A stretch of DNA of 64,000 bases, taken from contig NZ_CAUI01000023.1 of the NCBI RefSeq assembly GCF_000350165.1, positions 434,001 through 498,000 on the forward strand. The letters are read 5' to 3'. Both the position numbers and the translations under genes were made by a program. Shown here piece after piece: positions 57,267 to 63,788 of the stretch. The stretch comes from Halanaerobium saccharolyticum subsp. saccharolyticum DSM 6643. GTDB taxonomy: Bacteria; Bacillota; Halanaerobiia; Halanaerobiales; Halanaerobiaceae. Each line of letters begins with the position of its first letter. Position 1 is the first letter of the stretch. A model generated the notes under the pieces. That model was given only the letters and a program-made list of their open reading frames with translations. It searched no databases and was not told the origin of the DNA.

Positions 57267-58145
57267 TTATAATCTTTTCAACCCATCTTTTAGTGATGTT
57301 TTTGGTTCCCAATTAGGAAGTCTGTTAAAATCACTCCAAAGCTCCATAACTTCTCTTTCCCGATATGGTCTTCCACCCCATTCTACCAAAACTTCAATGC
57401 CGGTTACTTTTTCATATAATTCAATTAAGTCTTTTAATTTGATCTGCTGACCTGAACTAACCGCATATTTGTTATGACTTATTTTCTTTTCTTTTATTAA
57501 ATCATAAGCAGAAATAAAAGCATCCACAACATCATCAACATGAACTAAGTCAATCTTTTGTTCTCCAGGTGACATTTTAAGTTTCTTCTTTTCTTTAGAA
57601 AACTTACCTAGCAAATTAATTAATTTACCTCTATTATCATCCTCAGCATATGTATCAAATAATTTTAAAGTTATAACATTAAAATTCAATGCATTCACAT
57701 AATATTCAATAACATCCTCAAAAGCCTGCTTAGTCGCTGCATATAAATTTACAGGGTTATAATCTTCATTTTTATAATGCTGCCAGGAAGTACCAGTATT
57801 AATAAAATTATAGGTGTTTGCTTTAGACATAGCTTCCAAAACATGAGTACCAAATTTAATATTACTATTAATTAGATTATCTATTTCATCTGATTTATGT
57901 TCTGAGATAAATAAGGAGGCTAAATGAAAAACTATATCAGCTTCAACTTCTTTAAAGTAATTGATTAACTCAGTTATATTCTGGTTATATTCAAAGATAT
58001 CAATCTTACTTTTAACTGATTCTAAATTTTTGTAAGTTGAAGATGGTCTGCTTATAATATGAACATTATATCCGAGCTCTACAAGTTTTTTACTCAAGTG
58101 TGAACCTACAAATCCAGTTGCTCCAGTTACAATAATATTTTTCAT
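57267..58145 (-). CDS. CDP-3,6-dideoxyhexulose reductase/epimerase-like SDR (AscF/RfbJ-like)
   Basis: 292 residues. GATGFVGSHLSKKLVELGY Rossmann motif, FHLASLF, TGTSWQHYKNED and NLYAATKQAFED (YxxxK). Last gene of the CDP-dideoxyhexose block. In the CDP-ascarylose, abequose or paratose pathways a final SDR reduces the 4-keto group; this protein is in that position. The specific sugar is inferred from the preceding 3,5-epimerase-like gene, which favours ascarylose. GAGGTG ribosome site. Confidence 0.78.
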   Translation of the reverse strand: MKNIIVTGATGFVGSHLSKKLVELGYNVHIISRPSSTYKNLESVKSKIDIFEYNQNITELINYFKEVEADIVFHLASLFISEHKSDEIDNLINSNIKFGTHVLEAMSKANTYNFINTGTSWQHYKNEDYNPVNLYAATKQAFEDVIEYYVNALNFNVITLKLFDTYAEDDNRGKLINLLGKFSKEKKKLKMSPGEQKIDLVHVDDVVDAFISAYDLIKEKKISHNKYAVSSGQQIKLKDLIELYEKVTGIEVLVEWGGRPYREREVMELWSDFNRLPNWEPKTSLKDGLKRL

Positions 58146-58161
58146 TTATAAACACCTCAGC

Positions 58162-58698
58162 TTAAAAAGGACTATTAAAATTATTAAATTTAATTAATTT
58201 TTGATCTTTTTCAGAAATTATGGGGTTATTGACATTCCAATCAAGACCAAAAGAATTCCAATGAACTCCACTATCACTATTTTCATTATAAACAGTCGAA
58301 ACATTATAAACAGTAATTGTGTTATTCTTTAATGCTTTAAATCCATGTGCTAAACCTTTTGGTATATATATTGAGTTTCTATTTTCTGCAGACAAATTAA
58401 CATTGATATATTCACCATAAGTATCAGAGTTTTTTCTTAAATCAAGTATAACATCCATTACTTCTCCATAGGGGACACAAACTAATTTATGATGGTCGTG
58501 TGGAGGTAACTGAAAATGCATTCCTCTAATCACATCTTTTTGTGATATAGAATAGTAACTTTCTTTAAAACTATTACATAAGTCATTTTCAGAAAACATT
58601 TCTGTATTAAAAGTTTTACAAAAAGTTCCTCGCTGATCTTCAAAGACCAAATTTTTTATTATATATACTTCATCAAGCTTTGTATCAATCAATTCCAT
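58162..58698 (-). CDS. RmlC-like cupin, probable CDP-3,6-dideoxyhexulose 5-epimerase (AscE-like)
   Basis: 178 residues, the size of RmlC enzymes. Cupin landmarks: FEDQRGTFCKTFN, RGMHFQLPPHDHHKLV with the catalytic His, VPYGEVMDVILDLRKNSDTYGE, and IYIPKGLAHGFKAL, then a Tyr-containing TVYNVSTVYNEN. In dTDP-rhamnose synthesis this fold epimerises C3 and C5. There are no rmlA/B/D genes here, while all neighbours are CDP-dideoxyhexose genes, so C5 epimerisation toward L-ascarylose is the best reading. Stop and start share one base with rfbG. Confidence 0.8.
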   Translation of the reverse strand: MELIDTKLDEVYIIKNLVFEDQRGTFCKTFNTEMFSENDLCNSFKESYYSISQKDVIRGMHFQLPPHDHHKLVCVPYGEVMDVILDLRKNSDTYGEYINVNLSAENRNSIYIPKGLAHGFKALKNNTITVYNVSTVYNENSDSGVHWNSFGLDWNVNNPIISEKDQKLIKFNNFNSPF

Positions 58699-59762
58699 TA
58701 TTTATCAACTCTCATATACTCTTTAATCTGTTCTACATCAAAATCATAATCAACATTATCATTCTGATACCAGTCAACTACTAAATCAATTGTCTGGTCA
58801 AAACTAAGTTTTGGTTCCCAGTTTAAGTGTTGTCTAGCTTTACTGATATCTAGTTTCAATAATTTTGCTTCATGTGGTTCATTACTATTAGAAGTATCAA
58901 TCCATTCACCTGAACCCCATTTATTAACCAATTTATCAACAAGTTCTCCAACTGTAACAATTGAAGCTTCATCAGGACCAAAATTCCAGGCACCTGTATA
59001 TTTTTCAGGGTTTTGATATAGTTTTGAAGCTAATAATAAATAACCCCGCAAAGGCTCTAAAACATGCTGCCAGGGTCTAATAGCTTTTGGACTTCTAATC
59101 TCAATAGCTTTATCTCTTTTTAGATAACTAATACAATCAGTTATCAATCTATCTGCTGCCCAGTCTCCACCACCAATAACATTACCGGCTCTAACTGAAG
59201 CCACAGCTATATCAGAATCTTCATTATCAAAAAATGATCTTGTATAAGCAGAAGTAACCAATTCAGCACAGCCTTTACTGGAACTATAAGGGTCATATCC
59301 GCCCATAGGATCATTTTCTCTATAACCCCAGATCCATTCATTATTCTCATAACATTTGTCACTGGTGATTATAATTACAGTTTTAACACTGTCACTCTGC
59401 CTGGCTGCTTCTAGAACATTTACAGTTCCCATTACATTTACTTCATAGGTCTCTCTTGGTTCTTTATATGATAATCTAACCAGCGGCTGAGCTGCCAGAT
59501 GGAAGACAATCTCTGGTTTTTCTTCTTTAAAAGTTCTTAAAAGATTATCATAATCTCTTATTTCGCCTCTAAGATCAGTGATCTTTTCACTTAAATTAGT
59601 AACAACAAAATTGTCCTGATCAGTATAAGGATCTAAGGCATAACCAATCACATTGGCTCCCAGCTCATTTAACCAGATAGATAACCAGGATCCTTTAAAT
59701 CCTGTATGACCTGTCACTAATACATTTTTATTATTATATATCCCATCAAATAATTCTTCCAT
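58698..59762 (-). CDS. rfbG: CDP-glucose 4,6-dehydratase
   Basis: 354 residues. TGHTGFKGSWLSIWLNELGA is characteristic of RfbG/DdhB (the KGSW segment distinguishes it from RmlB), followed by FHLAAQPLVRLSYKEP, ITSDKCYEN, the YSSSK catalytic motif, and GNVIGGGDWAADRLI. It converts CDP-glucose to CDP-4-keto-6-deoxyglucose. One base overlaps with rfbF upstream, so translation is coupled. Confidence 0.95.
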   Translation of the reverse strand: MEELFDGIYNNKNVLVTGHTGFKGSWLSIWLNELGANVIGYALDPYTDQDNFVVTNLSEKITDLRGEIRDYDNLLRTFKEEKPEIVFHLAAQPLVRLSYKEPRETYEVNVMGTVNVLEAARQSDSVKTVIIITSDKCYENNEWIWGYRENDPMGGYDPYSSSKGCAELVTSAYTRSFFDNEDSDIAVASVRAGNVIGGGDWAADRLITDCISYLKRDKAIEIRSPKAIRPWQHVLEPLRGYLLLASKLYQNPEKYTGAWNFGPDEASIVTVGELVDKLVNKWGSGEWIDTSNSNEPHEAKLLKLDISKARQHLNWEPKLSFDQTIDLVVDWYQNDNVDYDFDVEQIKEYMRVDK

Positions 59763-60538
59763 TACTCCCAGACCTTCCAGAAAGCCTTATCTTCATTCCA
59801 GAGTTTATTTAAATGTTTAACATCACGTTCATGGTCCATACATTCCCAGTTACCATCATGCTTATAAACCATAACTCTACCCTGTTTAGATAATTTTTCT
59901 AAAGGACCAACCTCAAAATCACAATCTTCTGCAGGAGATAAATGATCAAGCATTTCTCTTTCAAAAACCATATAACCACCATTAATCAAACCCATAGAAG
60001 TTTGTGGTTTTTCTTCAAAAGATTGAACTACATTATCTTCTTCCAGAAGTTCTCCAAATCTGGCTGGTGGATGTACACCTGAAATTGTAACCACTTTATT
60101 ATGTTCTTTATGGAAACGAACTAAATCATTAATATCGATATCAGCAACTCCATCACCATATGTAAGTAGATTTATACCGTCATCTAAATACTTTTCAATT
60201 CTCTTTATCCTACCACCCTTAAGAGTATTTAAACCTGTATCAACCAGAGTTACATTCCAATCAGTTTCGTTGTGATTATTGTGGAATGTTATATCAGAGT
60301 TACTTAAATCTATAGTAAAATCATTATTTTTAGCTTCATAATGCAGAAAATAATCCTTAATTACATCACCTTTATAACCAAGACAGATAATAAAATCAGT
60401 TACTCCATAATTAGCATAAGTCTTCATGATATGCCAGAGAACAGGTTTCTGGCCAATCTTAACCATAGGTTTTGGAATTAAATTTGTTCTGTTCCCAAGT
60501 CTAGTTCCAAACCCTCCTGCAAGTATTACTGCTTTCAT
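59762..60538 (-). CDS. rfbF: Glucose-1-phosphate cytidylyltransferase
   Basis: 258 residues, the normal length. ILAGGFGTRLGNRTNLIPKP is the pyrophosphorylase signature (GGxGTR...KPM), followed by MKTYANYGVTDFIICLGYKG, LTYGDGVADID, INGGYMVFE and WECMDHERDV. It makes CDP-glucose from glucose-1-phosphate and CTP, the first committed step. GGGGG before the ATG. Confidence 0.95.
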   Translation of the reverse strand: MKAVILAGGFGTRLGNRTNLIPKPMVKIGQKPVLWHIMKTYANYGVTDFIICLGYKGDVIKDYFLHYEAKNNDFTIDLSNSDITFHNNHNETDWNVTLVDTGLNTLKGGRIKRIEKYLDDGINLLTYGDGVADIDINDLVRFHKEHNKVVTISGVHPPARFGELLEEDNVVQSFEEKPQTSMGLINGGYMVFEREMLDHLSPAEDCDFEVGPLEKLSKQGRVMVYKHDGNWECMDHERDVKHLNKLWNEDKAFWKVWE

Positions 60539-60560: not shown

Positions 60561-61259
60561 TTATTCCCACTGATCTAAATAAATATTTTTTAAGTTTTCA
60601 GCTTCAAGTTTTTCTTTGAAATCTAAATTAAAATCAGTTGTACCACAGATATAGTAATGAGCATCTTGATAATTAGAAGCTGAATTTACTACATCTTCTT
60701 TGGATATTCTTCTATTTATAGTTTCTTTATTTTCTTCTTGGGTTGTAAATAATAATAGTTGATCATTATTTAATTTCTCTTTTAAATAGTCAAGTCTTAT
60801 AAAATCCTCATATTTTTTAGCTGAATAAAGAAGTTTTAATCGATCTAGCTCATTTTGTTCTTCCAGAGCCTCTATAAAACTAAAAAATGGAGTTACTCCA
60901 GTTCCACCAGCCAGACAGACAATATCATTTTTTTGATCAAAAACTGGTAAAATAAAATCTCCATAAGCATATTTAATTGTAACTTCACTACCTTGTTTAA
61001 CTTCATTAAAAATTCTTGTAGTATATCGCCCAACTTTTTTTATTACCAGTCTAATTACTTTTTCTTCATTATAATAAGAAGCTAAGCTAAATGTTCTTGA
61101 TTCAGGCCAGTAATCAGAAGAATCAACCTCTTCTAAAGACAGCTGCAGAAACATTCCAGCTTCAAATCTTCTATATTTATCAGGTTTTAAGATATATTCT
61201 CTAATTTCTGCTGTATGTTCAATTACAGACAGGATCTCTGCCTGGGTTACAACTGCCAT
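60561..61259 (-). CDS. CDP-6-deoxy-glucoseen reductase-like flavoprotein without ferredoxin domain (RfbI/DdhD-like)
   Basis: 232 residues. Ferredoxin-NADP-reductase fold: FEAGMFLQLSLEE, RTFSLASYY (flavin-binding RxxS), CLAGGTGVTPFFSFIE (nucleotide-binding) and YYICGTTDF at the end. Known E3 enzymes (DdhD/AscD) are ~330 residues with an N-terminal plant-type 2Fe-2S domain (four Cys); this protein lacks it. It begins directly with the flavin-binding barrel. If it serves rfbH, its electron carrier must be a separate ferredoxin. Start follows the rfbH stop by 3 bases. Confidence 0.82.
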   Translation of the reverse strand: MAVVTQAEILSVIEHTAEIREYILKPDKYRRFEAGMFLQLSLEEVDSSDYWPESRTFSLASYYNEEKVIRLVIKKVGRYTTRIFNEVKQGSEVTIKYAYGDFILPVFDQKNDIVCLAGGTGVTPFFSFIEALEEQNELDRLKLLYSAKKYEDFIRLDYLKEKLNNDQLLLFTTQEENKETINRRISKEDVVNSASNYQDAHYYICGTTDFNLDFKEKLEAENLKNIYLDQWE

Positions 61260-61262
61260 TTT

Positions 61263-62582
61263 TTATAACCTTTCATCAAAGAAATCAGCAAACTGCTGAA
61301 TAATGTATTCAATCTTCTGATCATCAAGCCCAGGATAAACTCCTATAAAGAAAGTATTATTCATTATATAATCAGTATTTGCAAGATCCCCAACAACTCT
61401 GTATTCAACATTTTGATAGGCGGGTTGTCTGGTTAAGTTGCCTGCAAATAATTGTCTAGTCATTACCTTGTGTTCCTCTAAGTAATTAACAAGTTCATTT
61501 TTTGTGAATTCATCATTTTCTTTAACTGATAATGGAAAAGCAAACCAGGAAGGATCAGAATTTTCTTCTGCTTCAGGTAAGATTAAATATTCCTCAAATT
61601 CCTTAATACCTTTATATAGCTTTTCGAAATTTTCTTTTCTTGCTTTTATAAAATCAGGAAGCTTTTTTAACTGTTCTACTCCAACTGCTGCCTGCATATC
61701 AGTAACTTTCAAATTATAACCCACATGACTGTAAACATATTTATGATCATAGCCATATGGAAGATCTCCAAACTGCATAGAAAATCTTCGGCCACAGGTA
61801 TTATTCGCACCTGGTTCACAGTAGCAATCTCGACCCCAGTCTCTAAAAGAAACTGCTAGCTTCTTATATACAGGGTTATTAGTTAAAACTGCTCCACCTT
61901 CTCCCATTGTCATATGGTGAGCAGGATAAAAACTAACAGTAGCAAAATCGCCAAAATTTCCGACCATTTTACCATCATAAGTAGTTCCAACTGCGTCACA
62001 GCAATCTTCAATTAAATATAAGTTATGTTCTTCAGCAAATTCTGTTACAGCTTTTAAATTAAATGGATTACCCAGAGTATGAGCGAGCATAATAGCCTTA
62101 GTCTTATCAGACAGTGCTTTTTCTAATTCTGAAACTTTTATATTATAGGTACCAAGTTCTACATCTACAAATACAGGAACAAACTTATTTTGAACAATTG
62201 GATTAACTGTTGTTGGAAAACCAGCAGCAACAGTGATTACTTCATCACCAGCTTTTAATTTTCTTTCTTCTAATTTATCTGAAGTTAAGGCTGATAAAGC
62301 AACTAAATTAGCAGAGGAACCAGAATTAACCAGAGAACAATATCGCTGATCCATAAAATCTGCAAATTCTGCTTCAAATTCTTCAGCATATCTTCCAGTC
62401 GTTAGCCAAAAATCAAGACTGGAATCAACTAAAGATACTTTTTCTTTTTCATCAAAAACTCTAGCTGCAAAAGGTATAGTATCTTTACCCAATTCAAAAC
62501 TTTCTTCTTTTTGTTCTTCTCTATGCAATTCTTTTACTTTTTCAAGTATTTCTTTTCGTAATTTATCAGTTTTTTTACTCAA
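61263..62582 (-). CDS. rfbH: CDP-4-keto-6-deoxyglucose 3-dehydrase (E1), PMP/2Fe-2S enzyme
   Basis: 439 residues; TTG start after GGAGTGA. Member of the DegT/AHBA aminotransferase fold that has lost the Lys: [16 protein letters not shown] places His222 where aminotransferases have Lys, which is diagnostic of E1. The 2Fe-2S Cys set fits C-x57-C-x-C-x7-C with Cys195, Cys253, Cys255 and Cys263 ([12 protein letters not shown]). It removes the 3-OH to give 3,6-dideoxy sugars. First gene of the block; upstream is the SMEK-domain gene with an 18-base gap. Confidence 0.95.
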
Positions 62583-62600: not shown

Positions 62601-63698
62601 TCAATTTGTAAGTCCAGCATCTTTTCTTGCAGTTAGCTTTTTTGCGAATTGATTAAAATCTAGATTAACAAAAACAATTTTAAACCTAACATCATTTTTT
62701 TCTAAAAATTTTTTAAGATAATGATAAAAATATTCTTTTTCCATTATTCCATCAAAACAAATATAATAAGAGTAGTTAATTTCTTCAAAATAAATTAATC
62801 TTTCCTCTTCTAATAAATTAAGTTCCTCATTAATAATATTTTGAGATAAACTGAAAAACCTTTTGATCTTAGCATAATTTATTTTATAATAACTGTCATC
62901 AGCACTACTTGTACTCTCTTTAAGTAGAACAGAGTAAAATTCTCTCGTAATACGTGGTAAGCTTTTTAGTTTATTATAAAATTTAATCATATCTTTATGA
63001 AATTCTACTTCATCTAAGAAGTCTTCTATACCAGGCCAATAATGGCCTTTCTTAGGGAAGTCCCCCATTAAAAAGTTAAATAACTTAATTGAATTTTTAG
63101 GTTTAGAATAAGTTCGCTTTTCTAAATATTTAAAGATTTCATTTTCATAATTATTATTTACATCTGGAATCTCTAATTCTGCTTGAACTCTCATCAAATC
63201 TCTTTTTATTAAGGTATATACTTTTTCCAAATTATCTAATGATAAACTAGTAGTTTTTTTATAAATATAATTCAAATCTATTATATTATCCTTTTTGTCA
63301 AAGTTAATTTCATTAGCAATTTCTAAATATTTATTTTTTAATGTATATTGTCCCTGTTTTTCACCAATTATAAATATATAAAAATCATCATATAATTCTT
63401 TATCTTTTGATGAAATATTAGTTAAAGTTTCTTTAACTTTGGAAGTGGATTTATCTGTAGTAATTTGATATGCAACTCTTGCATTTTTATCTCCTAAATC
63501 TATACCTGGATAATTTGGTTTTTCTTGGTTTAAGTTAATTAAATTAATTTCTTCAATGATATTTATTATTTCTTTAAAGAAATCTTCACAATAAATATTT
63601 AAGTTAGTATATCCTAATTTGTTTCTAGGAGTAATTGATAATCTTAATTGACTTAGAGAATCTATTATTTCTCCAATCATTTTGCCTCTTGTTAGCAT
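62601..63698 (-). CDS. SMEK-domain protein, nuclease-like
   Basis: 365 residues from the ATG at 63698 with GAAAGGA 5 bases upstream; the frame is open earlier, but no better start precedes it. N-terminal MLTRGKMIGEIIDSLSQLRLSI and the PGIDLGDKNARVAYQITTDKSTSKVKETL region have the D-x...(Q)IT-K layout of restriction-like PD-(D/E)xK folds found in SMEK proteins. C-terminal ~150 residues contain a possible winged helix (NEELNLLEEERLIYFEEIN). SMEK proteins often occur with defence genes. It abuts the rfbH operon, but its promoter region is outside it. Function is inferred. Confidence 0.65.
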   Translation of the reverse strand: MLTRGKMIGEIIDSLSQLRLSITPRNKLGYTNLNIYCEDFFKEIINIIEEINLINLNQEKPNYPGIDLGDKNARVAYQITTDKSTSKVKETLTNISSKDKELYDDFYIFIIGEKQGQYTLKNKYLEIANEINFDKKDNIIDLNYIYKKTTSLSLDNLEKVYTLIKRDLMRVQAELEIPDVNNNYENEIFKYLEKRTYSKPKNSIKLFNFLMGDFPKKGHYWPGIEDFLDEVEFHKDMIKFYNKLKSLPRITREFYSVLLKESTSSADDSYYKINYAKIKRFFSLSQNIINEELNLLEEERLIYFEEINYSYYICFDGIMEKEYFYHYLKKFLEKNDVRFKIVFVNLDFNQFAKKLTARKDAGLTN

Positions 63699-63788
63699 AA
63701 AAATCCTTTCTATGATGCCAAAAAAATGATAAAATTCTCTACACATAAAAAAATAGTTTTTTACATATAAACTCAATCCCTTAAGTTC

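Follow-up and report, generated by a model that had tools for sequence, protein, structure and literature searches.

A short FNR-type reductase without a ferredoxin domain is linked to rfbH in Halanaerobium saccharolyticum and in other bacteria

The rfbH operon and its short reductase gene

The window, i.e. the whole stretch of 64,000 nucleotides from Halanaerobium saccharolyticum subsp. saccharolyticum DSM 6643 that was analysed, carries the following features around rfbH.

57267..58145, reverse strand: SDR family protein (PF01370, 127 bits)
58162..58698, reverse strand: RmlC-type epimerase (TIGR01221, 176 bits vs 156)
58698..59762, reverse strand: RfbG, CDP-glucose 4,6-dehydratase (TIGR02622, 507 bits vs 278)
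59762..60538, reverse strand: RfbF, glucose-1-phosphate cytidylyltransferase (TIGR02623, 332 bits vs 300)
60561..61259, reverse strand: short RfbH-coupled reductase, 232 aa, ATG start (from ORF, Pfam and model)
61257..61265, reverse strand: rfbH/reductase junction, with TAA stop, 3-bp gap AAA and ATG in one shared frame
61263..62582, reverse strand: RfbH (E1), the PMP/[2Fe-2S] CDP-4-keto-6-deoxyglucose 3-dehydrase (NF011936, 735.4 bits vs cut-off 423)

RfbH possesses the cysteines C195, C253, C255 and C263, i.e. the pattern C-x57-C-x-C-x7-C, a cluster-ligand spacing that we take to be the [2Fe-2S] signature, as well as the active-site motif YPAHH, with His in place of Lys. Among 127 aligned RfbH rows, the exact x57 spacing is found in 111, a spacing of x50-70 in 126 and YPxHH in 124, and the best PDB sequence matches of the protein are the 3-dehydrases 3bcx and 3bb8. 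The order of the genes behind the reductase (rfbF, rfbG, RmlC-type epimerase, SDR) would fit the formation of a CDP-3,6-dideoxyhexose, perhaps one of the ascarylose type. The RmlC-type protein may act as C5-epimerase in an ascarylose-type branch, and the SDR protein is the probable 4-ketoreductase of the 3,6-dideoxyhexose. Directly upstream of rfbH, a reverse-strand ORF (62604-63776) encodes a SMEK_N protein (PF21941, 136.6 bits), which is unexpected next to sugar genes.

Since the codons before the reductase ATG are, in frame, the rfbH stop TAA and AAA, the reductase has no in-frame N-terminal extension. A C-x3-5-C-x2-C motif is absent from the three reverse-strand frames of 61201-61800. An alternative upstream start with a Fer2 segment was thus ruled out by the in-frame rfbH stop and the missing motif, as the initial annotation had maintained. 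The only stops in the joined rfbH and reductase frame are those of the two genes, and the frame is likewise shared in two congeners (L133, L135) and in a verrucomicrobial locus (L068). A read-through fusion was nevertheless rejected, because in the third congener (L134) the genes are 2 bp apart and open in different frames, which argues for two proteins. The short reductase is encoded in an intact frame in all three congeners (91-94% identity); the gene is therefore not broken.

Pfam assigned NAD_binding_1 (PF00175) with 42.3 bits (cut-off 22), whereas FAD_binding_6 (PF00970) stayed below its threshold (15.4 vs 21.1 bits), as did FAD_binding_8. No Fer2 domain was detected at E<=1, although the control protein L218 gave a Fer2 score of 54 bits. 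The whole protein holds two cysteines, too few for a [2Fe-2S] site with four Cys ligands. An AlphaFold2 model (13-row alignment, mean pLDDT 85.9, pTM 0.80) shows, by structure comparison, a two-domain FNR fold over the entire length (residues 1-232). According to DSSP of the model and the Pfam ranges, the FAD barrel spans residues ~1-105 and the NAD(P) domain ~112-232. The same fold is seen in the reductase domains of flavohaemoglobin, BenC, GcoB, Fre, Fpr and SpNOX (Z 22.7-25.4 over 208-226 residues, 16-23% identity in the structural alignments), with near-equal scores for Fe-S-free and Fe-S-linked relatives. The top PDB sequence match is the SpNOX DH domain (E 2.5e-10). The protein does not reach the NCBIfam cut-offs for Fpr (NF008178, 31.4 bits vs 390) or Fre (NF005963, 56.6 bits vs 230).

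The classical E3 (AscD/RfbI, of the Yersinia/Salmonella type) was compared via WP_044337078.1 of Sphingomonas hengshuiensis (L218), a protein of 329 aa annotated only as FAD-binding oxidoreductase, with Fer2, FAD_binding_6 and NAD_binding_1 domains, encoded in an E3-rfbF-rfbG-rfbH cluster. Like the classical E3, the short reductase combines FAD and NAD(P) modules of the FNR type and is linked to rfbH in a presumed CDP-3,6-dideoxyhexose operon. Unlike L218, it lacks the N-terminal Fer2 domain and is 97 residues shorter, its gene follows rfbH, and its C-terminus reads D-x-W instead of D-A-F. The initial annotation, which described a protein about 100 residues shorter than known E3 proteins, devoid of a 2Fe-2S domain and starting at the flavin barrel, was accurate on each of these points.

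A reductase family that accompanies rfbH

Thirteen distinct members of the short form were found: the window protein, those of the congeners (L133-L135), five from MAGs of Prevotella (L029), Marinilabiliaceae (L030), Verrucomicrobia (L068), Aminicenantes (L085) and Bacteriovoracaceae (L103, Bdellovibrionota), and four from further genomes of a Bacteroidota draw (L182-L185). The window and MAG members were sought in the neighbourhood of rfbH, and the linkage of these six is a consequence of that approach. Profile searches yielded the other seven, in 59 genomes of the class and in the 395 genomes of the Bacteroidota draw (the latter with an E cut of 1e-40). Members score 1.0e-64 or better; the next-best FNR proteins score 1.7e-28 in one search and, among the matches listed, 3.7e-31 or weaker in two others. 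None of the 13 members has the Fer2 cysteine motif, and eight have fewer than four cysteines.

All 13 share the motif WP[ED]SRxFS and the C-terminus D-x-W, which is followed by E in ten. Other FNR domains differ: when 71 of them were aligned, W51 and P52 were matched in none and W231 in one, many rows being gapped at these positions (69 of 71 at P52). W231 aligns with the C-terminal aromatic position, F397 in SpNOX as judged from the aligned ranges, which presumably shields the flavin.

In all 13 cases the short gene lies directly downstream of rfbH, with a gap of -1 to 83 bp (-1 to 13 bp in 11). It is important to note that this also holds for each of the seven members found independently of rfbH. 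This bears out the initial annotation in its view that the enzyme adjoining rfbH is the likely partner of RfbH. Conversely, rfbH was seen in the fetched flanks of none of 13 inspected non-member FNR loci. Within the genus, four of 12 genomes have rfbH, and it is these four that have the short gene. In the Bacteroidota draw, the centre of which was chosen for having the rfbH/reductase pair and the loci of which were taken with 1.5-kb flanks, 29 of 395 genomes carry rfbH and five the short gene, all five within the 29. With the centre left out, four of four fall among 28 of 394 (p 2e-5, kinship ignored). A plasmid search with the short protein gave seven weak matches (<60% identity). By profile, none of seven inspected plasmid records, out of 34 bearing RfbH, encodes the short reductase, and one carries a long E3 (Sphingomonas).

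RfbH and its neighbour also diverge together. The correlation between their pairwise distances is 0.976 over 13 pairs and 0.935 over ten, values that were reached in 0 of 20000 permutations. In an RfbH tree of 127 rows (quick search), the 13 partnered RfbHs lie within a set of 16 (SH-aLRT 88, unstarred), and the partner label requires three changes, as few as in 0 of 500 shuffles. The remaining three rows of the set (L018, L031, L075) have no detected partner. The simplest reading would be a single association that has travelled with RfbH and has been lost at least once. In L018, which belongs to the same class, the order of the rfbH, rfbF, rfbG, epimerase and SDR genes is unchanged, but rfbF follows rfbH after 27 bp and the short gene is missing; RfbH may thus manage without it. 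Altogether, this looks like a conserved, inherited family of RfbH-coupled, Fe-S-free reductases and not like a damaged or anaerobe-only copy. The open-access literature, to which our search was mostly confined, yielded no description of a Fer2-less RfbH reductase.

Loci without a linked reductase and origin of the short form

A nearby FNR reductase was detected in five of 89 rfbH loci (L016-L024, L029-L108), and all five are of the short kind. The 89 comprise nine from the phylum (one of which, L024, holds a partial RfbH) and, out of at least 590 confirmed loci, the 80 with the best match to the RfbH alignment, some on short contigs. The reductase profile (A2, E<=1e-12) matches the classical E3 L218 at E 8e-13 and is therefore able to detect such proteins, though at this threshold long E3 proteins may escape it. 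Within this sample, few RfbHs have a dedicated linked reductase. In the other 84 loci, no FNR reductase appears in the fetched flanks, and the donor is not seen beside rfbH. Other RfbHs presumably draw on the general electron pool, by analogy with SpnQ.

In eight rfbH-bearing relatives from the phylum, all PF00175 frames measure 264-649 aa and none is of ~230 aa, which, judged by frame length and for these eight relatives only, suggests that the genomes have no short reductase. Two of these frames, the NqrF-like L115 and L118, have an N-terminal Fer2 motif. L118 (G028, 649 aa) groups with FNR proteins of 270-290 aa in the tree described below. A candidate long E3 in G039, a 364-aa Fer2-FNR protein, was discarded since its gene adjoins an NqrE-like gene and it looks, by eye, like NqrF. 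In the survey of the 89 loci, a looser motif also matched L022 and L063, which were judged chance hits.

Several RfbH frames are unusual in other respects. In seven loci (L226, L227, L229, L232, L233, L237, L252), the open frame of RfbH is longer at its N-terminal end by about 105-135 residues. Fusion of RfbH to a ferredoxin domain in such Bacteroidota frames of 540-565 aa was considered and rejected, as the extra part is N-terminal and neither L226 nor L232 has a Fer2 or Fer4 match; the stretch of L232 is PemK/MazF-like (PF02452, 42.6 bits) and that of L226 matches no family. The rfbH matches of L007 (G087) and L223 (G479) contain one internal stop each, TAA and TGA, respectively, which could reflect an assembly error, decay, or a match that runs past the gene end.

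Where does the short reductase come from? By stating that the enzyme lacks its ferredoxin domain, the initial annotation implied a loss. In that case the short protein would be the FNR half of a classical E3 of the AscD/RfbI type whose Fer2 domain was lost once in this lineage, an origin that would fit either electron route. The same operon type and the presumed same role speak for such a truncation, and three members obtain their best NCBIfam scores, narrowly, with Fer2-bearing families: the window protein with BenC (64.0 bits vs 63.3 for flavohaemoprotein), L030 with BenC (60.0 vs 58.6) and L103 with MmoC (67.5). In the best tree of 84 FNR domains (quick search), however, the 13 short proteins form one clade (97) that is placed among Fer2-less FNR proteins, including the ferric-reductase/NOX-like L153 and L154, and apart from the main group with N-terminal Fer2. 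This tree sampled, among the matches listed, those fetched as loci, leaving out matches of <170 residues, identical rows, and 17 listed prefixes (weak, partial or distant rows, and L141 and L208 for their very long branches). When the short family was held with L218 alone, the AU test gave p 0.004, whereas grouping with ten or seven N-Fer2 rows was not rejected (p 0.105 and 0.059, quick trees); the value for all 11 such rows (p 1.4e-15) is unfair, as they include L118, which sits elsewhere on the tree. Gene order differs as well, the reductase gene following rfbH here and preceding rfbF in the Sphingomonas cluster. These trees and tests neither support the implied loss as such nor reject it, and we regard truncation of a classical E3 as rather unlikely.

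Instead, we tentatively propose, with somewhat less than even confidence, that the short proteins are a second, independently recruited class of Fe-S-free RfbH reductases, kin to FNR domains of the NOX/flavohaemoglobin type. Such an enzyme would reduce a PMP/[2Fe-2S] dehydrase straight from FAD, would have been inherited together with one clade of RfbH, as a unit of two genes, across about five phyla, and may have been lost where the general electron pool suffices.

Electron transfer to RfbH

According to the initial annotation, electrons must reach RfbH through a separate ferredoxin, an adaptation plausible in a ferredoxin-rich anaerobe. Both readings are weakened by the present data. As a dedicated RfbH reductase, the short protein would accept electrons from NAD(P)H on its FAD and hand them on singly and directly to the [2Fe-2S] cluster of RfbH, which would in turn reduce the PMP-bound glucoseen intermediate. 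The cluster of RfbH itself would thus stand in for the ferredoxin domain of the classical E3. Among the close folds of the short reductase are domains of flavohaemoglobin, SpNOX, Fre and b5-reductase, in which electrons go from flavin to partner with no intervening Fe-S centre. We favour direct transfer over a separate ferredoxin, if only with evenly divided confidence, because RfbH already holds a one-electron [2Fe-2S] acceptor, so that the ferredoxin route is not forced; direct transfer is at least as economical. The Fer2-less FNR-type protein, its linkage to and co-divergence with RfbH and the retained cluster ligands of RfbH are observed, and from these we infer that it reduces RfbH, that it would do so with no intermediate carrier, and which cofactors it would use. 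The studied E1/E3 pair counts against a direct FAD route: there, the iron-sulfur cluster of E3 passes the electrons to that of E1 (PMC8987622).

The short protein could instead be an NAD(P)H:ferredoxin (or flavodoxin) reductase, with a separate soluble carrier feeding RfbH. SpnQ provides a precedent, since this enzyme works with ferredoxin/reductase and flavodoxin/reductase pairs (PMC8987622). Like RfbH, SpnQ is a PMP 3-dehydratase of the E1 type with a [2Fe-2S] cluster, reduced without an E1-specific E3 (PMC8987622). Its pairs are not E1-specific, whereas coupling to rfbH and joint divergence mark the short reductase gene. The top structure matches include Fpr-type folds, and, as a linked reductase was detected in few of the rfbH loci surveyed, a general pool is presumably usable. 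On the other hand, custom motifs for 4Fe-4S ferredoxins and flavodoxins found nothing in the ORFs of 90 rfbH loci. A 2Fe-2S pattern, reported for the window and five short-form loci, matched one reverse-strand ORF of L029, judged spurious. In the host genome, PF00111, which covers Fer2 domains and not 4Fe-4S ferredoxins, matched nothing at E<=1 but two [FeFe]-hydrogenases, and thus no stand-alone Fer2 ferredoxin. Moreover, joint inheritance with rfbH would presumably be unnecessary for a general ferredoxin reductase.

The distribution of hosts also bears on the carrier model. The initial annotation suggested a look at homologues of this length in other anaerobes. The hosts of the short form speak against an anaerobe-only role: six of the 13 host genomes, that of the window included and some of them MAGs that may be incomplete, contain a gene of the haem-copper oxidase family (PF00115), a family model that may also catch NO reductases. 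The same pair thus occurs with differing electron pools. Loss of the gene does not track this marker either, as of the relatives without the short reductase G039 has a PF00115 match (6.9e-62) and G176 and G220 have none. On balance, we consider a separate carrier somewhat unlikely, though an unlinked 4Fe-4S ferredoxin could act as one. The host genome (L002, G000:C5:556546-557184) also encodes a protein of 491 aa in which Fer4 domains precede an FNR module and which may serve in electron transfer at the membrane.

That the short protein does not serve RfbH at all, but acts as a free-flavin or other reductase in another step of the operon, appears quite improbable. The fold alone does not fix the partner, and the NAD(P)H:flavin reductase 1qfj is one of the top structure matches. 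Yet the linkage is to rfbH itself, and the gene behind can differ, being, by eye, not sugar-like in L103.

Among the enzyme couples for C-3 deoxygenation of sugar nucleotides, E1/E3 has been studied best. Our survey of 89 loci suggests that most rfbH genes have no linked reductase, which raises the question of their electron source. A natural coupled partner that has no Fe-S cluster of its own allows the need for the E3 cluster to be addressed directly, and might also offer a practical way of making CDP-3,6-dideoxy sugars.
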